IMG/VR virus record: IMGVR_UViG_3300020421_000043 | Location: 1 to 43,561 of that record | Length of the DNA stretch: 43,561 nt | Source of the DNA: a virus | Strand: one strand, 5' to 3' | In this document: piece by piece, positions 3,066-29,071 of the stretch | Numbering within the stretch: position 1 is the first letter of the stretch | Layout: every line of letters starts with the position of its first letter | Translations under genes and position numbers: made by a program | The notes under the pieces: generated by a model | Databases searched by the model: none | What the model saw: only the letters and a program-made list of their open reading frames with translations | What the model was told of the DNA's origin: nothing

Positions 3066-3196
3066 AAAAAGAAACATCGTCAACTCGACAAGTGTTTAAC
3101 TATTATGGACAATTATCAATCAAATCACAAGATCGTTTGTATCAAGAAATCGTAAAGTATTATAGGGATGAAGAGATGCAAAAGATTGACAATTGA
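3062..3196 (+). CDS. Hypothetical basic small protein (GTG start)
   Basis: A 44-residue ORF starts with GTG in a GTGA overlap with the oxygenase stop. It encodes a Lys/Gln/Tyr-rich helical peptide (MKKETSSTRQVFNYYGQLSI... KYYRDEEMQKIDN). The coupling geometry and absence of other coding in this stretch support it. It is short and unrecognised, so the call rests on context. Its stop lies inside the -35 region of the promoter for the next gene. Confidence 0.5.
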   Translation: MKKETSSTRQVFNYYGQLSIKSQDRLYQEIVKYYRDEEMQKIDN

Positions 3197-3214
3197 TATT
3201 TTCTAATATAAAAT
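3186..3214 (+). promoter_or_regulatory. Sigma70-type promoter
   Basis: TTGACA (3186-3191) is followed after 17 bp by TAAAAT (3209-3214), one mismatch from the consensus -10. Transcription should begin near 3221, giving a leader of about 20 nt before the ATG at 3240. The -35 overlaps the end of the preceding small gene. This is a host-polymerase (early-type) promoter. Confidence 0.7.
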
Positions 3215-3239
3215 AGTACAGTCTACTTCTCACTCCACA

Positions 3240-3446
3240 ATGCTTCTTACTAACACTCAACTTACACGCTATCGCGTTACTATCGATTTCACCGTAGATG
3301 ATACTAACTGTGTTCATCCTAGAGATTGGAACTGGAAAGAACTTTTACAGTTAAAAGGTGATGAAAAGGTAAGGGAATTATATGTAGAAAACCTCGGTAC
3401 ATATAACACTAAGAAAGGTAAGCGAAAGGAGAAGAAGAATGGATGA
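3240..3446 (+). CDS. Hypothetical protein with basic C-terminal tail
   Basis: This 68-residue ORF has a beta-like N-terminus (RYRVTIDFTVDD), then HPRDWNWKELLQLKGDEKVRELYV and a strongly basic tail (KKGKRKEKKNG). The N-terminal portion resembles a family of small cyanophage proteins of unknown function (strand, D-W-N core, L-x-x-E-x-V helix). It has its own strong sigma70-like promoter and a pyrimidine-rich leader without a Shine-Dalgarno. It overlaps the next, extremely acidic, ORF by 8 nt. The basic tail next to an acidic partner could mean the two proteins interact, but that is inference. Confidence 0.65.
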   Translation: MLLTNTQLTRYRVTIDFTVDDTNCVHPRDWNWKELLQLKGDEKVRELYVENLGTYNTKKGKRKEKKNG

Positions 3447-6968: not shown

Positions 6969-7625
6969 ATGAGTTCACTAGTTGTTAATCTACCCTCACA
7001 AAAAGTGTGGGTCCGTAAAGAGTATCTAAGAGACTTGCAAGACGGACATGGTGAATTTGTTGAAGGCGTCTGGGTGTCGGCTAAGTCGATACCTGGACGT
7101 TCTTTTTATTTTGAAACTTATTTGCCTGAATATGGTGCAATGTTTGATAAATTGCCCATCAGTGCATTTGTTTCAGAACCAAAGACACCTGATCCTGATC
7201 TAGATCTGCCTAATTTGCAGTTTTGGAATTGCATGGACTATGGAGTAATCAATGTATGCAAACAATTTGTAGCATCTATGGACTGGCAAGTCCGAACTAG
7301 ACACTTTGGTAACCTTATGGGTACATATATTTGTACTCTAGACAATTATCATGGTGATCCTGATGTAATTGATTACTCTACAAGTGAAATTCCACAGGAA
7401 CATAAGTCATTTAATGTACTTGAATTGGAAAATGGACAGTTTGCCTTGTATCCAAACAACAGATGTCGCATCTTTGACATTAGTCTAACCCCCCAAGAGC
7501 CAAAAATACCCGACTTTAAGGTCTCTACGGAGTACTATCAGGTAGAAAACGGTATTGATTGGGGTAGATTGGGTGATACTGATGAATATTTCTGGGAAAC
7601 ACCCGAAGAAAAGGATAATAAATAA
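6969..7625 (+). CDS. Conserved T4-like cyanophage protein, 218 residues
   Basis: This soluble, Tyr/Trp/Asp-rich protein starts MSSLVVNLPSQKVWVRKEYL... and continues with FVEGVWVSAKSIPGRSFYFE, LPEYGAMFDKLPISAFV, then CMDYGVINVCKQFV and the acidic tail GDTDEYFWETPEEKDNK. I recognise the sequence style as a conserved protein next to gp25 in T4-like cyanophages, but no function. It does not look like T4 gp53, which a position-based annotation might assign. Being in the late block suggests a structural or assembly role. It is 5 nt after the previous gene, and AATAAATA lies at its 3' end. Confidence 0.7.
   Translation: MSSLVVNLPSQKVWVRKEYLRDLQDGHGEFVEGVWVSAKSIPGRSFYFETYLPEYGAMFDKLPISAFVSEPKTPDPDLDLPNLQFWNCMDYGVINVCKQFVASMDWQVRTRHFGNLMGTYICTLDNYHGDPDVIDYSTSEIPQEHKSFNVLELENGQFALYPNNRCRIFDISLTPQEPKIPDFKVSTEYYQVENGIDWGRLGDTDEYFWETPEEKDNK
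7617..7624 (+). promoter_or_regulatory. Candidate late promoter (AATAAATA)
   Basis: AATAAATA differs at one base from the T4-type late octamer TATAAATA and sits 28 bp before the gp25 start, across the stop codon of the previous gene. GGCGGAG (7628-7634) is the likely ribosome-binding site for gp25. Confidence 0.4.
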
Positions 7626-7651: not shown

Positions 7652-8068
7652 ATGGCTCGATCCATCAGTAAAAAACGAGTATCCAAAACTTTTAAGGATA
7701 TCAGTTTGTCATTTGTACCACATCCTGTTACAAATGACCTAGGATCGTTTAATGATGCAGATGCAATTAAAAGATCTGTAACCAATTTAGTTAGAACTAA
7801 TATTGGTGAACGATTCTTTCAAAATTTAATTGGTTCTACCATTGAAAATTCCTTATTTGAGCAACCAACAGATGATCTTGCTTCTGGAATGGAAGAAGAA
7901 ATTCAGTACTTACTCGCAAACTTTGAGGAAAGGATAGATAATGTAGAGGCTAGAGTATATCATCCACCAGATTCCAATGATATGAACGTTCATTTAACAT
8001 ATACCATCATTGGATTGCCCTTACCAGTGCAAGATATCGATTTTATCCTACAATCTACTAGGACATAA
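7652..8068 (+). CDS. 25: Baseplate wedge subunit gp25
   Basis: This 138-residue protein matches the T4 gp25/GPW_gp25 family (T4 gp25 is 132 residues). It has a basic N-terminus, then LSFVPHPVTNDLGSFNDADA, the helix IKRSVTNLVRTNIGERFFQN (around 40-59) and a C-terminal strand segment (VEARVYHPPDSNDMNVHLTY). The R-T-N-x-G-E-R-F/P signature is a hallmark of this family. In T4, gp25 joins gp6 and gp53 in the baseplate wedge and lies near the sheath-initiating region. Its stop overlaps the gp6 ATG by one base, matching their joint role. Confidence 0.93.
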   Translation: MARSISKKRVSKTFKDISLSFVPHPVTNDLGSFNDADAIKRSVTNLVRTNIGERFFQNLIGSTIENSLFEQPTDDLASGMEEEIQYLLANFEERIDNVEARVYHPPDSNDMNVHLTYTIIGLPLPVQDIDFILQSTRT

Positions 8069-9940: not shown

Positions 9941-12900
9941 ATGCCTGAACAAAACAAAGTTAAGATCTCTCAATTAATTGAGTCTCAGATTCCTTCATTT
10001 TTGAATCAAGAGTCTCCTCTTTTTACTGAGTTTTTAGAACAGTACTACATTTCCCAAGAACATCAATCTGGTGTTACAGATCTTGCTGTTAATTTGCCAG
10101 AGTATAGGCAGATTACCGCATTTAACAATGAGAGTTTAATACCATATAATGTTCTTCTTTTAGATATTTTTTCTGCGGACGATACAATTACAGTTCAGTC
10201 AACTGCAGGATGGCCTGATCAGTACGGACTTATTAAAATTGATAATGAAATTATTACATACAAGTCCAAGACTGAAACTCAGTTCTTAGAGTGTAGTAGA
10301 GGTTTTAGTGGAATTAGTAAAATTCAGCAGGACGTTAATTCTGAATTTTTAGATTTCTCCATCTCCGAAGCTGATGAACATAGTGCTGGGTCGTTAGTAT
10401 ATAATTTAAGTAATTTATTTCTACAAGAATTCTTTGCCAAGTTTAAGAAAGAATTTTTACCTGGGTTTGAAAACAGATCTTTTGTTGAAGGCACCTCTGT
10501 CCAAAATACCCTTACTAGAGCTAAGGATTTTTACTCGGCAAAGGGAACTGATGCATCATATCAAATTCTCTTTAAACTATTGTATGGTGAAGAAATTGAG
10601 CTCATCAAACCAATTGATGATACTATTACTTCTTCTGCCAATGTCTATTTCAAGACTAAGAATATTCTTGTAGAAAATCTTTTTGATGGAGATCCCTTAC
10701 GAACTGTAGGTAACTTCCTGTTCCAAAATGTGACTGGTATTGGAACAGTAAGTGCTTCGATTTATAATGTAGAATACAGACCTATTGATGATAAAGATTT
10801 CTATGAAATCTCTCTAGACGCATCTTCATTCTCTGGAAGTTATCAAGTTCCTGGTAAAACAAAAACACTACAAGGTATTCCTCAGTTCTCGGATAATATT
10901 CTGGTTGACTCTACTGTTGGATTTGATAGAGAGGGATCGCTCTTAATCAAACCTACAGTAGATTCAAACTTTATTGAAATATCATATACAGATAAAACAA
11001 TTAATCAATTTTTAGGTGTCAGCGGTATTTCCACTGACTTGGTATTTGGTGCAGAAATTTTTGAAGATAAACTAGCTTTTTCTTATGCTGGATTTGGACA
11101 AACATCTCAGGTACAACTAAGAATCGTTAATGTCATTGATAACATTGACGTAAGTGATACTGCCAATATGGTAGTTGGTGATAGCTTAAAACTATCTACT
11201 TTTGGTTTGGATAAGGGAGAAGACTCTCAGTTTAATAGTTGGATCTATAATATCCCAACAATTCATAATATTAGTTCTGTTGACCAACTCAACATCAATA
11301 CATTCAGAATTAATCTTTTTGATGATGTTGTCTTCTATATTGGTGAAAAAATTGTTCTCTCCAATGACAATACAGAGATAACTGGTGAGATTAGAATTAT
11401 TGAATATGATGCTTCTAGAAGTGAAAAGAGACTTAGTAATAAAGTTGTAGTTTTGGTGAATGGAACTCTTCCAATAGAACCAAAAGTTCTTAAAAAAACA
11501 ATTGTAAAAGCTGAGCACAATCTAGGTAGATTTCCAGGAATTAATAAGTTCCCTGTTGGAATTCAGAATAGTTATCTTTCGGAGAATGGAGATGACTATT
11601 TTGTAACTACTGCTGGTATTCCAAACTATCCTCTATTTGCAACTGATAATAAGAAATTTGTTAAAACTGATATTAATGAAACTACTGATTCGGATGGAAC
11701 CCCAATCAATGGTGGCGGATTTACCTATTTGATGAAGTCTGTAGATGCTGATGATACTAACACTCCCATTAAACATGATTATGCAACGGGAGATAAGATC
11801 TTCTGGGACAATATTGACAACAGCGGAATACAAACAGGAATTTATTTTGTTACTGCTGTAAATGAAACGGAGTTCTACTTATCTTTTAGTGGATCTGATG
11901 TATTTTCTCAAAAGTATATTCCATTTAACATAAACTCTACAGGGCAGTATGTTGTTAAGTCTGGTTTTGAGAATAAGGAGATACAACACCAGAAAATTTT
12001 AAAGAAGTTTCCATATGTACGGAAGGAACAATATTTTGATGATCCAAATGCTAGAGATGTTAAAAACAGACCTGTTGGTCTTCTAGCTAATGGTGTTGAA
12101 ATATATCCACCAACAGTATTTGATGAACAGATTTATTACGGTGATATTGTTAATATTAAAGTTACAAATACTGGTAAAAATTATGATGTGATCAATGGTC
12201 CAGACATAGTAGTTCAGGATCAAGATGGAAGTGGGTGTAAAGCTTTTCCAACCGTTACGGGATCATTCCGTGAAGTTAGACTTGTTTCTCCTGGAATTGG
12301 ATATCAGAAAAAACCAAAGATTACTGTTGAAGGTGGAAACGGTAGTGGTGCTGTTCTGGAATCTAATTTCGTAAAAGGAAAAATCATTGTTAATTTTAAG
12401 GCTGATGGAACATCTGTAAATTCTAACTCAGAGACTATCGATTTTCCGACAGTTCATAATTTTGAACTTGGAGAAGAAGTCTTTTATGACTCTAAAAACA
12501 ACACTCCGATTGGTAATTTGATTAGTGGTGCTACTTACTTTATTAGGATTGTTGACAGTAAAACAATAGCTTTACACACATCTTTCCAGGATGCAGTTAA
12601 TAATACCAATACAGTAAATATTGGAGCTCCAAGTTTTGGTTTCCATAGTTTTGTTTCTACGAAATCCAAAAATACGATTACCAAAATATATGTTAAGGAA
12701 CCTGGAAGTGGTTATTCAAATAGAAAAGTAATTGTTCCTTCTCGAACAACTGCTGCAGGAACAAGATCTGGTATTGATACCTCCGACAATTACATTTACG
12801 CAAGAGGACACAACTTCGTTACTCGTGATGTCGTAAGATATTCCCATACAGAAAATGCTATTGGTGGGTTGAGTAGCACTACAGAATACTTTGTAAAAAC

Positions 12901-15900
12901 TATTGATTCTAATAAATTTAAACTATATGATGTTGGAATTGGTACTGCGAGAGATATTACTAACTTTGAAAAGAATAAAGAAGTATTTCTAACTAATTTT
13001 GGATCAGGCGAACATACACTCTCTTATCCTCCAATTGTTGTAAAAGTAGAATCCATTTCTGCTATTGGTTCAACTACTATTATCCAACCACAACTGGATC
13101 CAGTAGTTCTTGGTAGTATCGATAATGTGTACCTACAAGAAGGTGGTATTGGATATGGATGTACAAATATTATTGATTTCCATAGAAGACCTAATGTTGG
13201 AGTTTCTACGGTTGTCTTTAATGCATTACTGAAACCAATTATTATTGGCGGTCGTATTGTTGATGTGCAAATTCTTGCAAAGGGTAAGGGTTTTAGAAAA
13301 GACTCTGATATCTTTATTCATGGTTCATCTGGTGATTTTGCTCAAATCAATCCAATCGTTGAAGATGGTGGTATTGTCGCTGTCCAAATTCTTGACGGCG
13401 GAGCTGGATATGAAAATGATGTATCCTTAGAACTTAGAAATAGAGGTACTGAAGCTAAGTTTATTGCTGATGTCCATGAATGGAAAATTAACCAAGTAAC
13501 GAGAGCTGCTGAAAATATTAATCCAGAAGATGGATGTATATTAAAACCAACTACTAATCCAAATCTTGGACTCCAAGCCGTATCAATGTATCCTCCCAGA
13601 AAGTTGAGATATCAACTTGGAGATAATATTGATGTAGGCAATCTTGAATTATCACAAAATGCTATTCATTCTCCTATCTTGGGATGGGCATATGATGGTA
13701 ATCCAATTTATGGTCCATATGGTTTTGAGAACCAAATTGGCGGTTCAATAGTTAGACAGAATAGTGGTTATATTCTCAATAATCAAAATCTTGATGGTAT
13801 ACGACCTCCAGCATATTCATTAGGTTATTTTACAAATGATTATTTGTTTAATAATTCTGGAAGTCTAGACAAACATGGCGGAAGATATTGTGTAACTCCA
13901 CAATTTCCAGATGGAACGTATGCATACTTTTTCAGCATTGACGTTGATTCTAGTGGAGTTGCTGAACCCAAATTCCCATATCTTATTGGAGACAGATTTA
14001 AAGACCTTCCAGTACCAGATAATTTCAATACATTCTTTAACCAAGATCTTGATATTTCTAAAGAAAAATTATCTAGAAATATCGGACCATATTATTTGTC
14101 CTTTGGAAACTCCAAATATGATCTGATTGATAAGGTAGATGATTCATATCAACAGAAATTCTTTGTAACTAAAGTAAAAACTTCTGGTATTGGATCTGTT
14201 AGCATCTTTAGTAGAGGTTCTGATTATAAAGTCAATGATCTCTTGTCGGTTAACAACGAAGGAACGGATGGATCTGGAGCCAATATTGTTGTTGACACTA
14301 TTCTTGGTAAGGATATTAGTGAAATTAGTGTAGGAGTTTCAACTTACAAGGAAACTGAACTTAGAATAAGTGGCAGAAGTGTAGTTGGAATAACCACAGT
14401 TCCACATGACTTCTTGGATAATGAATCAGTTCATATTTCTGGAATAACAACTGCTAAGTTTGCACCATTTTTTGGCAAACAAAAAATTACTGTACCAAAC
14501 CGTCGTGTAGGACTTGCAGAATATCTTCCTAATATTGGAGTAACAGGAATAACAACCTTTATTTCTGTTACAGATACTGTTGGGTTTAAACCTGGTGATC
14601 ATATCGGTGTTGGAACCGAAGTTATGGTTATTACTGAAGTTGATAATAAGTTTAGGAGATTTAGAGTCAATCGCCAAAATTATGTTGGCATTGCAATTAC
14701 GCATCCTGTCTCACCAAACTCCGTTTTCTTGAAACCAGTTGAGTTTGAATTTAGTGCTGCCACAGTTGATAAACAATTCTTCACTTATGCAGTACAACCA
14801 AATAGAAGTATATACTTCTCACCCGAAAACACCGTGGGTGTGGGTTCTACGGGCAGAATCTACGATATCATTAATACTGGTATTGGAACAGTTTTAACAC
14901 AAAGTTATGATACTAGATTTGTACCCGAAAGAAGAATCTTTATCCCAAATCATCGTCTTGCTACTGGACAACCATTAAGATACAATGTTGGTACTGCTGG
15001 AACTTCCCTAGTTGTTTCAAATACAGCTATTGGAGCTACTTCGGGCATCGGAACTGTTAAATTAGAGGATGACTCTATTGTATATGCAGTTAATTTTGGG
15101 CAAAACTATCTTGGAATATCTACTGCTGGGTTTACTACAATTGGAGATGCATTATACTTCTTCGATATAGCAGCCAATATTGGATATGCTCATTCACTTA
15201 CTACCCAGTTCCCCAGAGTTAATGCAAGAGTTGAAAGATATTTTACTAGCGTTGTCACTGATACTAATCATGGATTGGAAAGTGGTGATATTGTAAAATT
15301 CAATACATCACCAACTCAGTCAGAAAATATTAAACTTAGATTTGATCCTCTTATTGGTAAGATTACATCGGACAGAGTAAGCTTCTCTAGTACTAGTATT
15401 TCTGCAGATTATACTGCTATCGATATTGAAGATGAAACATTTAAGAGTGGAGATAAAGTAGTATTTTATGCGTCTGATGGTAATCTTATTGGTGGATTGG
15501 AAAATAACAATACATATTTTGTTCTCCGTGAAGATCCACAATTTATCAAACTTGTTCAGTATAAGTCGGATATTGTAGATTCAAATTCAATTGTATTTTC
15601 TTCTGTTGATATTGGTACATATGAAATTGCTAAGATAAATCCAGCGTTATCTTTTACGGAAGGTAATCAATTTATTTTTGATGTTTCTGATGTGTCTCTA
15701 AAAGACATGAGATTGGAATTTTATTCTGATGCCAATTATAGAAATAGTTTGGAAGTTCAAGGAACTGACCAGGGTGGATTTGCTATTACTAGAAATGGTA
15801 TATCTGGAACCACGGATGCTACAATTATTATTGACAGTAAAAAAGATTATCCAACTAAGAGTTTTTACAATTTAGTTCCAGTGGTCCCTTCTGACCAAAG

Positions 15901-18889
15901 AAAACTAAGTGTTATTTCGGACAAAGATGTTATTGGTAATAATAGCGTCACTCTTAATGAAATAGTAGTTAATGGTGAGCAACGAATTACTGTTAGTGGT
16001 GATAAAGAATTTACATACAATCTTGATCGCAGACCATCAGAAACACAGACTTATGTTTCTAGACTTGGTGTTAGTACAATTTTCTATGAAACATCATCTA
16101 CCTCTGCTGTCGGTCCAGTTTATTCTACAAAAACAAACTTTTCTGGTAGAGGATACAGAATTATTCCATCTACTAACGGATTTGTGAGTACTTCTGGTAA
16201 GAATGCAACGGTCAAAATTCTTTCCAGTGATATTGGTAAAATTGATACTCTAGAAAGAGTTAAGGATGGATTTGATTATCCAACAGATCCTACTTTGATT
16301 CCATTCCTAAGTGTACCAGCTGTAATTGACGTTGCAGGGGTTCAGAGAATTAATGAAATTGAGATTTTGGATGGAGGTAGAAATTATTCTCAACCACCCA
16401 ACTTGATTATACGTGGTAATGATACGATTGATCTACAATCTAGAATTAATGGTGGAGCTGTAGACAAAGTATTCATTCTTCAAAATGCTTTTGAATTTGA
16501 TGAACCTTTGAGCATTATCCCAACACAAAACTCTAATGGATTTGACATTGATCAAATTACTCATGTTGGAGATACTGTAACTATTGAATTACTTCTTGAT
16601 GCTCAGTTCAATCAACCAGTCAGAACGGGATATGGAACTACTGATATTGAGTTTCCGTTTAAAGTTGGAGATTCTATTTTTATTGAAGGATGTAGATTAA
16701 AAGCCGATTCTTTTGCAGACGGCGAGATTAATTTCAACTCGGAAAACTTTGATTTTAAGTTCTTCACCGTTACTGGAGTCAATACTTCTAGTTTTACACT
16801 TTCGTATAGTGTTGCTGGAATTAATACAGGAACCTTGGGATCTTACGATGATGATTTTGGACTAGGTTATGTCGTTAATTCTAACGATATGGCAAAGTTT
16901 AGAATGAGTCTTATTAATGATGCCAAATTCTTATCTGAAGAAAAAATCACTTCTAAGAAATTTGAAGGATTTGTATCTCCAGGTGGTTGGGATCCTAGAT
17001 TGAGTCAACTTAGACTCTCTGATACTTCTGGAATATTATCTGTTGGAGATGAGATCTATGGAGAACAGTCCACTATCATAGGTAGAGTTGAAGCTGTTAA
17101 TAGATTTAATGTTAGAAGTACGTTGGGAGTTAGTAGAGATAAAGTCGCAAAAAATGATAATACCACTGGAATTCTTAACGAGTTTAGTCAAAGAATTTCT
17201 GATAACTTCTACTATCAAAAGTTTTCATATTCCATTAAAGGAAGAGTTCCATATGATACATGGAGGGAATCTGTAAGATCTATTGTTCATCCTTCTGGAT
17301 TTAGAGAATTTTGTGATCTTGAGATTATTAGCCAACCAACCACCAATATGAAGGTTAAGTCGGCTACTAATTCTGTAAATCTCTTAGTTAATATTGATAG
17401 TGACATTTATCTACAAGAAAGACAGAACTTTGCTCTAGTCACTGAAGATGATATGGCTCCAGATGGAAGTATTCAAAGAATTTTCTTCCCAGAAGGTAGA
17501 CCTATTAAGAGTTACATTCTGAATAAGACTAATAAAGTTCTATTGATGGATGATATCTCTTCTGGTTTCAATGGAGATCACGATAGAACTGGAACGTTAG
17601 TTGGTAATATTGGATTTAAACTGAGAGCTAATGGTCAACCATTATTTAAAGCAACTTTCGATGCATCCAATAGTTCAGTTGTTGATCTTGTGGATAACAT
17701 CATTACTATTCCTAATCATAACTTCCAAACAGGTCAGGAATTGAATTATAGTCTAGAAGGTGGATCTCCAATTGGAATTGCTACTACATCTCACATTGCT
17801 GGTCTTAGAGACATTGTAATGAGTGTAGAAACAGCATTGGCTGGCAGTGGTGCAATGTTTGAAAATGGATATAACATAGAAATTCCAGAACATACTGTTA
17901 CTGGTGTTGGTACTGTAGTAAATCCAATTGTTACATTTGTTGTATATGGATTTGGAAGTCCTGATGGTGGTCTTCCTGGCATTTCTACTAGAGGAACGGG
18001 GGCTAGATTCCAAGTTAAATTTACATATGACCAAAGTACAGGTCAACCACTTTCTACGAATATTACCCTGACTCAGGGTGGTAGTGGATACTATGTTGGT
18101 GATAATGTGAGTATTGCTGGTACTCATTTGGGTGGAACTACTCCTGCAAACGACCTAACATTCCCTGTATCACGCATCACTGGTACTCAAACAGGTGTTA
18201 CTACTACTTACCTTAACGTACCATCCACAAGTGATTTAAGCGGTACTGGCGCACGTTTTGACGTTACTAGAGATTCAAATCTTGATGTTGAAAGTATTAT
18301 TGTTGTTAGTGGTGGTAGTGGATATGTAAGTACGGAAACAATTTCTATTGCTGGAACTTATATTGGTGGTAGTGGTTCTAATGATGATCTTCTCTGTACA
18401 CCAGTAGAGCTGGGTGGAACATCTATTCCAGAAAAAGTTTTTGTTCAGAAAATTGATGATGTTACATTTAAGATTAGTGGACTATCCACTGCATTGCCAT
18501 TGAATTTTGTTGGATATGGAACTGGAACTCATAAGTTTAGCGTTGCTGACCCATCTACAAATGCATTAATCTTGATTGATAATATCATCCAAAGTCCTCT
18601 TAGAAACAAAAAACTTGAGATTGGTATTGGATCTCCAATTGGAATATATGATCAAAGTATTGTCGTTACTACTGGAATTACGTCTTTGGCACCAAATGAT
18701 GTGATTAAGTTTGGTGATGAATTTATGAAGGTTAAACAAATTGGTGATGGAACATTTGTTCAAGGTAGAAGAGCAGAAATTGAAAATACTGTAGACAATA
18801 ATTTCTTCTATGATGTCAATAGAGTGAACTCCACTATCACTAGGTTTAATGAGACTGTTGTAACCCATGATGATAGACCTCCGTATTAA
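9941..18889 (+). CDS. Giant gp7-position baseplate/virion protein with YHYH-like domain
   Basis: This 2982-residue protein lies where T4 has gp7 (1032 residues). The first 230 residues include FLNQESPLFTEFLEQYY and RAKDFYSAKGTDASYQILFK (about 193-212) before LLYGEEIELIKP, a motif shared with gp7-like wedge proteins. I therefore propose the N-terminus docks on gp6. The middle (about 730-1160) is a chain of beta modules marked by G-x-G-Y and GSGA turns. Around 1170-1340 lies a YHYH-like domain with GWAYDGNPIYGPYGF (about 1247-1261) and a conserved HGGRYC segment. The end (2707-2827) has two GGSGY...SIAGT repeats. No transmembrane or catalytic site is visible. It is AT-rich (about 28% GC in sampled lines). 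The gp7 equivalence is inferred from position and the N-terminus. Confidence 0.8.
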   Translation: MPEQNKVKISQLIESQIPSFLNQESPLFTEFLEQYYISQEHQSGVTDLAVNLPEYRQITAFNNESLIPYNVLLLDIFSADDTITVQSTAGWPDQYGLIKIDNEIITYKSKTETQFLECSRGFSGISKIQQDVNSEFLDFSISEADEHSAGSLVYNLSNLFLQEFFAKFKKEFLPGFENRSFVEGTSVQNTLTRAKDFYSAKGTDASYQILFKLLYGEEIELIKPIDDTITSSANVYFKTKNILVENLFDGDPLRTVGNFLFQNVTGIGTVSASIYNVEYRPIDDKDFYEISLDASSFSGSYQVPGKTKTLQGIPQFSDNILVDSTVGFDREGSLLIKPTVDSNFIEISYTDKTINQFLGVSGISTDLVFGAEIFEDKLAFSYAGFGQTSQVQLRIVNVIDNIDVSDTANMVVGDSLKLSTFGLDKGEDSQFNSWIYNIPTIHNISSVDQLNINTFRINLFDDVVFYIGEKIVLSNDNTEITGEIRIIEYDASRSEKRLSNKVVVLVNGTLPIEPKVLKKTIVKAEHNLGRFPGINKFPVGIQNSYLSENGDDYFVTTAGIPNYPLFATDNKKFVKTDINETTDSDGTPINGGGFTYLMKSVDADDTNTPIKHDYATGDKIFWDNIDNSGIQTGIYFVTAVNETEFYLSFSGSDVFSQKYIPFNINSTGQYVVKSGFENKEIQHQKILKKFPYVRKEQYFDDPNARDVKNRPVGLLANGVEIYPPTVFDEQIYYGDIVNIKVTNTGKNYDVINGPDIVVQDQDGSGCKAFPTVTGSFREVRLVSPGIGYQKKPKITVEGGNGSGAVLESNFVKGKIIVNFKADGTSVNSNSETIDFPTVHNFELGEEVFYDSKNNTPIGNLISGATYFIRIVDSKTIALHTSFQDAVNNTNTVNIGAPSFGFHSFVSTKSKNTITKIYVKEPGSGYSNRKVIVPSRTTAAGTRSGIDTSDNYIYARGHNFVTRDVVRYSHTENAIGGLSSTTEYFVKTIDSNKFKLYDVGIGTARDITNFEKNKEVFLTNFGSGEHTLSYPPIVVKVESISAIGSTTIIQPQLDPVVLGSIDNVYLQEGGIGYGCTNIIDFHRRPNVGVSTVVFNALLKPIIIGGRIVDVQILAKGKGFRKDSDIFIHGSSGDFAQINPIVEDGGIVAVQILDGGAGYENDVSLELRNRGTEAKFIADVHEWKINQVTRAAENINPEDGCILKPTTNPNLGLQAVSMYPPRKLRYQLGDNIDVGNLELSQNAIHSPILGWAYDGNPIYGPYGFENQIGGSIVRQNSGYILNNQNLDGIRPPAYSLGYFTNDYLFNNSGSLDKHGGRYCVTPQFPDGTYAYFFSIDVDSSGVAEPKFPYLIGDRFKDLPVPDNFNTFFNQDLDISKEKLSRNIGPYYLSFGNSKYDLIDKVDDSYQQKFFVTKVKTSGIGSVSIFSRGSDYKVNDLLSVNNEGTDGSGANIVVDTILGKDISEISVGVSTYKETELRISGRSVVGITTVPHDFLDNESVHISGITTAKFAPFFGKQKITVPNRRVGLAEYLPNIGVTGITTFISVTDTVGFKPGDHIGVGTEVMVITEVDNKFRRFRVNRQNYVGIAITHPVSPNSVFLKPVEFEFSAATVDKQFFTYAVQPNRSIYFSPENTVGVGSTGRIYDIINTGIGTVLTQSYDTRFVPERRIFIPNHRLATGQPLRYNVGTAGTSLVVSNTAIGATSGIGTVKLEDDSIVYAVNFGQNYLGISTAGFTTIGDALYFFDIAANIGYAHSLTTQFPRVNARVERYFTSVVTDTNHGLESGDIVKFNTSPTQSENIKLRFDPLIGKITSDRVSFSSTSISADYTAIDIEDETFKSGDKVVFYASDGNLIGGLENNNTYFVLREDPQFIKLVQYKSDIVDSNSIVFSSVDIGTYEIAKINPALSFTEGNQFIFDVSDVSLKDMRLEFYSDANYRNSLEVQGTDQGGFAITRNGISGTTDATIIIDSKKDYPTKSFYNLVPVVPSDQRKLSVISDKDVIGNNSVTLNEIVVNGEQRITVSGDKEFTYNLDRRPSETQTYVSRLGVSTIFYETSSTSAVGPVYSTKTNFSGRGYRIIPSTNGFVSTSGKNATVKILSSDIGKIDTLERVKDGFDYPTDPTLIPFLSVPAVIDVAGVQRINEIEILDGGRNYSQPPNLIIRGNDTIDLQSRINGGAVDKVFILQNAFEFDEPLSIIPTQNSNGFDIDQITHVGDTVTIELLLDAQFNQPVRTGYGTTDIEFPFKVGDSIFIEGCRLKADSFADGEINFNSENFDFKFFTVTGVNTSSFTLSYSVAGINTGTLGSYDDDFGLGYVVNSNDMAKFRMSLINDAKFLSEEKITSKKFEGFVSPGGWDPRLSQLRLSDTSGILSVGDEIYGEQSTIIGRVEAVNRFNVRSTLGVSRDKVAKNDNTTGILNEFSQRISDNFYYQKFSYSIKGRVPYDTWRESVRSIVHPSGFREFCDLEIISQPTTNMKVKSATNSVNLLVNIDSDIYLQERQNFALVTEDDMAPDGSIQRIFFPEGRPIKSYILNKTNKVLLMDDISSGFNGDHDRTGTLVGNIGFKLRANGQPLFKATFDASNSSVVDLVDNIITIPNHNFQTGQELNYSLEGGSPIGIATTSHIAGLRDIVMSVETALAGSGAMFENGYNIEIPEHTVTGVGTVVNPIVTFVVYGFGSPDGGLPGISTRGTGARFQVKFTYDQSTGQPLSTNITLTQGGSGYYVGDNVSIAGTHLGGTTPANDLTFPVSRITGTQTGVTTTYLNVPSTSDLSGTGARFDVTRDSNLDVESIIVVSGGSGYVSTETISIAGTYIGGSGSNDDLLCTPVELGGTSIPEKVFVQKIDDVTFKISGLSTALPLNFVGYGTGTHKFSVADPSTNALILIDNIIQSPLRNKKLEIGIGSPIGIYDQSIVVTTGITSLAPNDVIKFGDEFMKVKQIGDGTFVQGRRAEIENTVDNNFFYDVNRVNSTITRFNETVVTHDDRPPY

Positions 18890-18918: not shown

Positions 18919-19947
18919 ATGGCAAAGCAAGGCATTAATACTGGTACTGCCCCTAATGATGGCACTGGAGATACCCTGCTGGCAGGAACTCTAAAGATCA
19001 ACAGTAATTTTGATGATCTTTACAATATCTTTGGAGACGGAACCAACCTTATTAGTTTCGTCTCTTACGCTAGTACTGCAGGGTATTCTACTAATGCAGG
19101 TATCGCATCCACATCTACATATGCTCAGACTGCAAGATATGTAACTGATGATATTGACATCAATACATCGGGTATCCTGACATCTTCATATGCTGACATT
19201 GGTAAGATTACCATTCAACAACCAGGAGCGATTACTGACGGTCCAATTGAGGTTGGTTTTGCAGCTACAATGTTCCGAATACGATCTGACGGTATGGTCG
19301 GCATCGGAACATCTATACCAACGTCTCAACTTGAAGTTGTATCTTTCTCCGATTCTAGACCAGCACTGTGGGCGATTGCAAAATCAAATGGTCCTTCCTT
19401 TAGAGCTTCAGACCAAGATATTACTCCAGATAAGACTTTTGTTGTTACAAAAGATTCCAATATAGGTATTGGTACAAATGTTCCAGCTCCTAACCAAAGA
19501 CTTGATATTCGTGGGAATGTAATTGCTGAGGGAGTTGTCACTCTTGATGGAACAACTAATTTTAATAGTGATATCACAGAAACAGTAGTAAATGACTTTG
19601 GTGATAATATTACAGTTTCTGCGGCAGGAACTTTAACTGTTGATCTTTCTCAAGGAACTGTAGTTCTTGGTGGAATTAGTACTTCGGTTACGACCTGGGA
19701 CTTCACTAATGTTACTGCATTAAATAGTAAGGCGACTACAGCAACTCTTGTTATCAATTCTGGTGTTGGATACACCTATGGTGATTCAGTTAATATTAAT
19801 GGTGGACCTATTGCTGGTGGTATTAGGTGGGTTGGAGGAAACCCCCCACCTGCTTCCCCAGGTGAAGATATTTTAACATTTAGTATAATTAGAGATTCTT
19901 CTGGTTTAACAAGAGTTTATTGTAGTAGTTCCATTAATATTAGCTGA
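18919..19947 (+). CDS. Tail-fibre-like virion protein, 342 residues
   Basis: The N-terminus (GINTGTAPNDGTGDTLLAGT, residues 5-24, then KINSNFDDLYNIFGDG) is a module seen at the start of many T4-like cyanophage fibre and virion proteins. It is followed by a Ser/Thr/Ala/Gly-rich coiled or beta-repeat section (about 48-110), a segment with GMVGIGTSIPTSQLEV and SNIGIGTNVPAPNQRLDIRG typical of fibre proteins with G-I-G-T repeats, and a C-terminal GVGYTYGDSVNINGG module similar to those in the adjacent giants. It has its own late promoter. The role as a short fibre or decoration is inferred. The next gene starts 8 nt after its stop. Confidence 0.75.
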   Translation: MAKQGINTGTAPNDGTGDTLLAGTLKINSNFDDLYNIFGDGTNLISFVSYASTAGYSTNAGIASTSTYAQTARYVTDDIDINTSGILTSSYADIGKITIQQPGAITDGPIEVGFAATMFRIRSDGMVGIGTSIPTSQLEVVSFSDSRPALWAIAKSNGPSFRASDQDITPDKTFVVTKDSNIGIGTNVPAPNQRLDIRGNVIAEGVVTLDGTTNFNSDITETVVNDFGDNITVSAAGTLTVDLSQGTVVLGGISTSVTTWDFTNVTALNSKATTATLVINSGVGYTYGDSVNINGGPIAGGIRWVGGNPPPASPGEDILTFSIIRDSSGLTRVYCSSSINIS

Positions 19948-27475: not shown

Positions 27476-29071
27476 ATGCCTGCCATTATATCGGAACAGT
27501 TTAGAATTCTAAACGCCGAAACCTTTGTAAAGAGTTTCGTTGGCGTTGGGTCTACCGTAAACAAATATTATGCATTCATTGGGTTACCCAATGCTTTTGA
27601 GGAAGAGGCTGGTGGAACAAGTGACTGGTCTACTAATACTCCCGCTCCATTAGATGGGTTCCTTGAAGAACATCAAATCAAGGAATCTATTATTGCAATG
27701 AAGAAAATTACGGACAAAGATGTTCGTAGATTGGTCCGTAAAGTCGAATGGATTGCTGGTACAACTTATGAAATGTATCGACATGACTATACAATTTACA
27801 ATACAACCCCAATTACAAAACAGGGTAATTTGTATGAATCGAATTACTATGTTGTTAATGAAGACCTGAAGGTCTACATTTGCCTTCAAAATGGATCTGA
27901 TCCAGAAAACCCAAGTGGTAGACCATCATATGATCAACCAACTTTTATTGATTTGGAATCAAGAGCCGCAGGTACTTCTGGTGACGGTTATGTTTGGAAA
28001 TATTTGTATACTATAAAACCATCTGAAATTGTAAAGTTTGATAGTATTGAATATATCCCAGTTCCCGAGGACTGGGGGCTGCGAGGTGAATCTGTAGCAA
28101 CCAGAAATAATTCTATTGATGGAAAAATTGAAGTTGTAGTTATTGACACTAGAGGATCTAATTACCAACCAATTTCCACATCATTCTCCAATGTTGATAT
28201 TTTGGGTGATGGTATTGGTGGTAAGGCAACCGTAACCATTGACTCCTTTGGTAAAGTATCTGAGGTATTCGTTACTGATGGTGGATCTGGATATACTCAT
28301 GGATCTATTCAATTCTTCCCAGGAGCTCCTGGAAGTCAAGAAGGTGGACCACTAGAAAACCTTACTAATACTGGTATTGGTACTACTTCTATTAGTAACT
28401 TTAGTGTAATTATTCCACCAAAAGGTGGACATGGATATGATGTCTACAGAGAATTGGGTGCATATAGAGCTCTTCTATATTCTAGATTCGAGACTATTGA
28501 AACCAACCCAGATATTATTGAGGGTAATGATTTTGCTAGAGTTGGAGTTATCAAAAATCCAACAATCTTTGGTAGTAACACTGAACTTTTGGAGACCTCT
28601 CAGGTTAGTGGACTGAAAGGGATTAAGATGGGTGGTATCACTACAGCGACAACATATGCTGTAGACTCCGAAATTACCCAGACAGTTGGTGTTGGATCCA
28701 CTGCTATTGGATATGTCGCATCTTGGGATAACATTAGTGGAGTTCTTAAATATTACCAACCAATGGGTCTTGCTTCTAGTGAAACTGGATATAAGATTAT
28801 TCCATTTACGGCAAGTCCTGATGCGGGATTTGGGTTGACAATTGCTGGGGAAACTGTCACTGGACCATTACTATCAGTAAATACTGATTTTAACGGTGTA
28901 AGTACCTCAATAAATAATAAGACATACCAACTTGGTCTTAACTTTGTTGCTGGTATTGCGTCTGCTGAATACAACACTAAGTCTGGCGAAATTATCTATA
29001 TTGATAATAGAGCCCCTATTCCTAGATCTGCAAGTCAGAAAGAAGACATCAAGATTGTTCTGGAGTTCTAA
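27476..29071 (+). CDS. 8: Baseplate wedge subunit gp8
   Basis: This 531-residue protein begins MPAIISEQFRILNAETFVKS... and includes KITDKDVRRLVRKVEW and AGTTYEMYRHDYT, typical of the gp8 proteins of T4-like cyanophages. These are longer than T4 gp8 (334 residues) because of added beta modules (for example GGSGYTHGSIQFFPG). YIDNRAPI at the C-terminus is also typical. In T4, gp8 dimers bridge gp7 and gp10 in the wedge. Here it follows the gp7-position and fibre-like giants and is 6 nt before the DUF4815-like gene. The order matches gp6-gp7-gp8 of T4 with insertions. Confidence 0.88.
   Translation: MPAIISEQFRILNAETFVKSFVGVGSTVNKYYAFIGLPNAFEEEAGGTSDWSTNTPAPLDGFLEEHQIKESIIAMKKITDKDVRRLVRKVEWIAGTTYEMYRHDYTIYNTTPITKQGNLYESNYYVVNEDLKVYICLQNGSDPENPSGRPSYDQPTFIDLESRAAGTSGDGYVWKYLYTIKPSEIVKFDSIEYIPVPEDWGLRGESVATRNNSIDGKIEVVVIDTRGSNYQPISTSFSNVDILGDGIGGKATVTIDSFGKVSEVFVTDGGSGYTHGSIQFFPGAPGSQEGGPLENLTNTGIGTTSISNFSVIIPPKGGHGYDVYRELGAYRALLYSRFETIETNPDIIEGNDFARVGVIKNPTIFGSNTELLETSQVSGLKGIKMGGITTATTYAVDSEITQTVGVGSTAIGYVASWDNISGVLKYYQPMGLASSETGYKIIPFTASPDAGFGLTIAGETVTGPLLSVNTDFNGVSTSINNKTYQLGLNFVAGIASAEYNTKSGEIIYIDNRAPIPRSASQKEDIKIVLEF

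Follow-up and report, generated by a model that had tools for sequence, protein, structure and literature searches.

What is the very long protein encoded directly after gp6 in the baseplate cluster of the virus record IMGVR_UViG_3300020421_000043, and what does the YHYH-like domain inside it do? The window analysed here is this whole 43.6-kb record (43,561 nucleotides), whose nearest isolates are the Synechococcus phages Sf-FS3 (77% at the amino acid level) and S-SSM7 (59%). The protein, P0001, has 2982 residues. An original prediction, made from the sequence alone, had placed it at the gp7 position, at almost three times the length of T4 gp7, with chains of beta modules and an embedded YHYH-like domain; its open reading frame (ORF), its size (2.9 times the 1032 aa of T4 gp7), its position, the beta modules and the domain are all borne out.

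We consider it probable that P0001 is the gp7 wedge scaffold, that its YHYH domain is reduced and nonenzymatic, and that the distal part of its arm has been split off as a second protein, P0002. The virus would be a Lipsvirus-like marine T4-like cyanophage. By analogy with T4 and XM1, the helices of P0001 (residues 1–66 and 151–222) and residues ~2421–2486 would pair with the gp6 dimer in each of the six wedges, and the ~2,200 residues at the place of T4 domain V (~100 residues) would project outward as a beta-rich arm to which fibre or adhesin proteins dock. The YHYH-like domain would be half a YHYH domain, whose strongly conserved remainder (DGxPIYGP / LDxxNGRxC / GTYAYF) most likely serves as a folded building block or provides a contact surface. 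P0002, the distal stretch of the arm, would be a separate protein since a gp9-like connector gene probably broke the gp7 gene.

The P0001 gene lies immediately 3' of gp6 in the wedge cluster, which is the position of T4 gp7, and the gp25–gp6–gp7 order is also present in the relatives that were fetched. Stretches of the T4 gp7 core were found in P0001 at residues ~1–222 and ~2421–2486, on either side of the long insertion. Residues 192–221 are 60% identical to T4 gp7 729–758, a match recovered by profile too, and residues 2428–2454, with the motif FSYSIKGRVPYDTWRESVRSIVHPSGF, align to T4 gp7 862–888 (YVMKIKSNLPSSRWKSDVIRFVHPVGF); both the core motif FYxxKGxxASYxxLFKxLYxEE and the C-terminal KIKS...W...VHPxGF are present. 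The gp7-like N-terminal motif of the original prediction is real, but its counterpart in T4 gp7 lies in the C-terminal half and not at the N-terminus. T4 gp7 has ~640 residues before its core and ~100 in the insertion, whereas P0001 starts with the core; no counterpart of the first ~640 residues was found in it. The core motif, the place after gp6 and the interrupted, two-part core are shared with T4 gp7 (PDB 5iv5, 5hx2) and gp17 of the Vibrio phage XM1, the closest known systems, with their (gp6)2–gp7 wedge unit (PMC10457771). XM1 gp17, at 242 residues a short gp7 ortholog, has its core at the N-terminus, and its additional regions hold the tail spikes (PMC10457771).

Structure prediction by segments, as the original prediction had proposed, gave core helices around a beta module for residues 1–365 in an AlphaFold2 (AF2) model of low confidence (predicted local distance difference test, pLDDT, 63). 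The best-ranked PDB structure for this model is 5iv5_BJ, a T4 baseplate chain of 1004 residues, and the match is weak (E=1.1e-3, template modelling score, TM, 0.14). The gp7-position protein of S-CREM2 (ORF122) was found in virions with 91 peptides (PMC10665884); taken as an ortholog by position and size, it would place P0001 in the virion as well. Judged from its sequence, P0001 is best described as a gp7-core homolog at the gp7 position, not a full member of the T4-type gp7 family.

The kept half of the YHYH domain

P0001 matches PF14240 (YHYH) with E=3.9e-18 and 66.5 bits (cut-off 25), and the match covers just profile positions 92–183 of 193, that is, the second half; GWAYDGNPIYGPYGF sits near residue 1248. 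The same family was found in the gp7-position ORF of 12 of the 14 related isolates tested, with no match in the other two (S-CRM01 and the Pelagibacter phage HTVC008M) or in T4, and 463 phage records, nearly all of cyanophages, carry the domain. A YHYH domain in the gp7-position protein is normal for marine cyanophages, and a passage of Iyer et al. 2021 (PMC7824862) already describes its fusion to baseplate proteins, with a gp7-position protein as exemplar; the view of the original prediction that it is an unusual addition does not hold. Long phage gp7-like ORFs also occur in genome bins labelled Flavobacteriales or Euryarchaeota (L058–L063), probably on phage contigs that these bins contain.

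The kept half has a mean identity of 56%, the same as the gp7 core block 151–225, compared with 36% in the half expected to hold the histidines. Because the kept half is conserved as strongly as the gp7 core, a structural role of the domain is more likely. Against PDB sequences, the YHYH region gave chance matches alone. Binding of host sugars or of a receptor would suit a domain located in the probable outward arm, and we regard it as unlikely: the domain ranks with the best-conserved parts of P0001 across Prochlorococcus and Synechococcus phages, unlike typical host-range domains. Sugar binding, suggested by the original prediction, has only an annotation in the literature (PMC7029224) in its favour here.

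The divided gp7 gene

P0001 and P0002 each match the single long gp7 proteins of relatives. Against S-CAM9, the match of P0001 ends with residue 2938 at 2742 and that of P0002 starts with residue 86 at 2742; the two matches join at 3176 in S-SM2 and at 3190–3215 in P-SSM2, and overlap at 3420–3446 in S-SCSM2R. In most other fetched cyanophages gp7 is one piece, and only the Lipsvirus-like group has P0002 split off here by a gp9-like gene. The gp7 proteins of S-SSM7 (SSSM7_101) and Sf-FS3, 59% and 77% identical to P0001 over the full length, have the same domain and the same split. The gp9-like gene followed by P0002 also occurs in three IMG/VR loci (L004, L010 and L012), and the start of P0002 in a fourth (L009). 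The break in the gp7 gene of this lineage is thus shown by comparison, and its direction, insertion of the gp9-like connector gene into a single gene, is the one we infer.

By gp6 phylogeny, the three isolates with the split gene group together as a clade, and the fused S-SCSM2R is their sister (100/99), a topology that favours one break in their common ancestor; some deeper forks are open. An ancestral two-gene state, with fusion producing the long gp7 of other phages, is quite improbable. A gp9 gene, and a protein of similar N-terminus after gp7, are present in P-SSM4 too, but there the region resembling P0002 1001–1408 is within gp7 itself, and, as far as the gp6 tree is resolved, isolates with the split gene are placed among those with a fused one. 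More speculatively, and with a low chance of being right, P0001 and P0002 could each retain part of the beta module in which the break falls and rejoin noncovalently, with the gp9-like connector at the joint forming a tail-fibre docking site.

Two observations concern P0002. Its homolog in Sf-FS3, XYM58898.1 (L003:30052-37530), is labelled YHYH domain-containing in GenBank, whereas PF14240 matches solely the gene two upstream, and the label looks misplaced. Residues ~640–1450 of P0002 contain repeats with FTFTC-LD-N-T-H-YPR-TDP and GGDY-H-FVS motifs, common to other cyanophage virion proteins.

The family histidines

Cellular relatives were obtained by genome scan, and the cellular set (n=59) comprises ORFs shorter than 760 aa from genome or plasmid records, with two longer ORFs added. 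Of the 110 viral copies, 88 come from IMG/VR and the other 22 are long phage-like ORFs on genome contigs; each is the longest motif-bearing ORF of its locus, adjoining gp6 not being confirmed locus by locus. The viral loci were collected by scans that used the kept half as their key, of which the best 80 were taken, and are not a random sample. The signature H-x(4-11)-YHxH upstream of DGxPIY was found in 55 of the 59 cellular proteins and in 0 of the 110 long-ORF viral copies, none of which has even an HxH there. The bacterial PF14240 proteins and the phage protein AOO14286.1 share the DGxPIYGP / LDxxNGR / GTYAYF half with the gp7 copy and retain GH...YHYH; those three histidines (GH and YHYH) are absent in every long-ORF viral copy examined, P0001 included. 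As P0001 lacks the eponymous YHYH and the preceding His, taken as the predicted zinc triad, its domain is by sequence YHYH-derived and degenerate.

Iyer et al. base their prediction of a Zn-dependent hydrolase, in the passage concerned, on a His triad plus Asp and name AOO14285.1 as an example (PMC7824862); that passage does not name the three histidines, and equating them with GH and YHYH is our reading of the cellular alignment. AOO14285.1 is the protein immediately after gp6 in S-RIM14 (KX349303), and no HxH occurs anywhere in its 6198 aa. Intact free-standing YHYH proteins adjoining gp7 are encoded by S-RIM14 and S-SSM4. In S-RIM14 this is AOO14286.1 (L219:24409-26130, 573 aa), the next gene after AOO14285.1, with CGGHPEQNGRYHYH and a C-terminal GSSNGG motif; the His triad was read directly in AOO14286.1 and 12 relatives. 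The window has no gene of this kind next to gp7. AOO14286.1 looks like a better enzyme candidate than gp7. Its C-terminal stretch (GSSNGG) resembles an alpha/beta hydrolase; Pfam names the YHYH part alone.

Because the signature is absent in the 110 viral copies and an intact free-standing protein stands next to gp7 in some cyanophages, metal binding, also put forward in the original prediction, or a Zn-hydrolase role is unlikely for the gp7 copy, and the gp7 copy was dropped as an enzyme after the histidine count. A role as a Zn-dependent hydrolase of the tail, acting to open the cell wall, as the family prediction and the fusion to baseplate proteins would suggest, is very improbable given these counts and the lack of HxH in the published example. 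With the family histidines gone and the other half strongly conserved, the half-domain would rather be a building block.

Several points weigh against the model of a gp7 scaffold with a nonenzymatic half-domain. Similarity to T4 gp7 is confined to short core stretches. P0001 has no match to any of the gp7 domains in Pfam (helical, PF21427 domain V, PF21456 domain VI), whereas PF21427 and PF21456 do match T4 gp7 itself. Pelagimyophages and cyanomyophages have been described as without T4 gp7 (PMC7029224), and literature searches found no solved baseplate structure of a marine T4-like cyanophage. The AF2 model of residues 1094–1492 (49 sequences) has a mean pLDDT of 53 and no fold match. Five residues, H1243, D1252, D1300, D1310 and C1317, hardly vary among the viral copies and may mark a different site.

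Size, neighbours and significance

Gene order in the window is gp25, gp6, P0001, a 342-aa gp9/gp10-like gene, P0002, gp8 and a DUF4815 protein (Table 1). Divergence of P0001 from Sf-FS3 by codon position (0.181/0.113/0.394) indicates purifying selection. Upstream, 6969–7625 encodes a 218-aa protein of phrog_3704 (named ferredoxin), whose relatives are labelled transcriptional regulator or ferredoxin.

Table 1. Features of P0001 and neighbouring genes; positions are those of the whole window.
Feature	P0001 residues	Position	Strand	Basis
gp25-like wedge subunit		7652..8068	+	phrog_261; synteny
gp6 baseplate wedge, 623 aa		8068..9939	+	phrog_219 E=2.8e-197
gp7-position protein P0001	1-2982	9941..18889	+	ATG start, uninterrupted ORF
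gp7 core, first helical part	1-66 (predicted helices 9-40)	9941..10138	+	AF2; weak sub-cut-off PF23786 Baseplate_wedge match
Beta module within helical core	67-150	10139..10390	+	AF2 pLDDT ~80-90, residues 71-120
gp7 core, second helical part	151-222	10391..10606	+	residues 192-221 match T4 gp7
Conserved block with YHYH-like domain	1094-1492	13220..14416	+	sequence comparison
QAVSMYPP, no histidines	1212-1219	13574..13597	+	aligned to YHYH site of cellular relatives
PF14240 match	1242-1334	13664..13942	+	HSPILGWAYDGNPIYG ... LDKHGGRYCVTP ... GTYAYF
gp7 core, C-terminal part	2326-2500	16916..17440	+	motif FSYSIKGRVPYDTWRESVRSIVHPSGF
Lineage-specific tail past break point	2939-2982	18755..18886	+	almost no counterpart in fused relatives
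gp9/gp10-like connector, 342 aa, at split		18919..19947	+	PF07880 E=2.6e-11; phrog_677
P0002, 2492 aa		19956..27434	+	residue ~86 onward matches C-terminal part of relatives' single gp7
P0002, first 82 residues		19956..20201	+	41% identical to start of P-SSM4_082
gp8 wedge subunit		27476..29071	+	PF09215, phrog_438

Read from annotated coordinates, the gp7-position proteins of 17 related phages range from 1016 to 7312 aa, and 14 of the 17 exceed P0001, so that its size is ordinary among relatives. The shorter ones are HTVC008M (1016), S-CRM01 (1454) and S-H34 (1942); the others are Sf-FS3 (2995), S-SSM7 (3007), S-H9-2 (3224), ACG-2014j (3494), S-CAM9 (3884), S-SM2 (4156), ACG-2014f (4225), P-HM2 (4454), S-T4 (4749), S-SCSM2R (5172), P-SSM2 (5195), S-RIM14 (6198), Syn33 (6376) and P-SSM4 (7312). 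Such wide size variation, the beta repeats and the label of one homolog as a large exoprotein could suggest a fused tail fibre or adhesin instead of gp7, which is barely credible in view of the gp7 core matches at both ends and the strict place after gp6.

The loss of the histidines in the viral copies and the split gp7 gene go further than the known YHYH–gp7 fusion. The first corrects a published functional prediction: the phage protein named there to exemplify a YHYH metal hydrolase is without the family histidines, and the intact copy is the next gene. The comparison also shows where gp7 has grown in cyanophages, by two thousand residues or more at the position of domain V, and the Lipsvirus-like lineage would provide a natural case of a fibre-connector gene breaking a baseplate scaffold gene.
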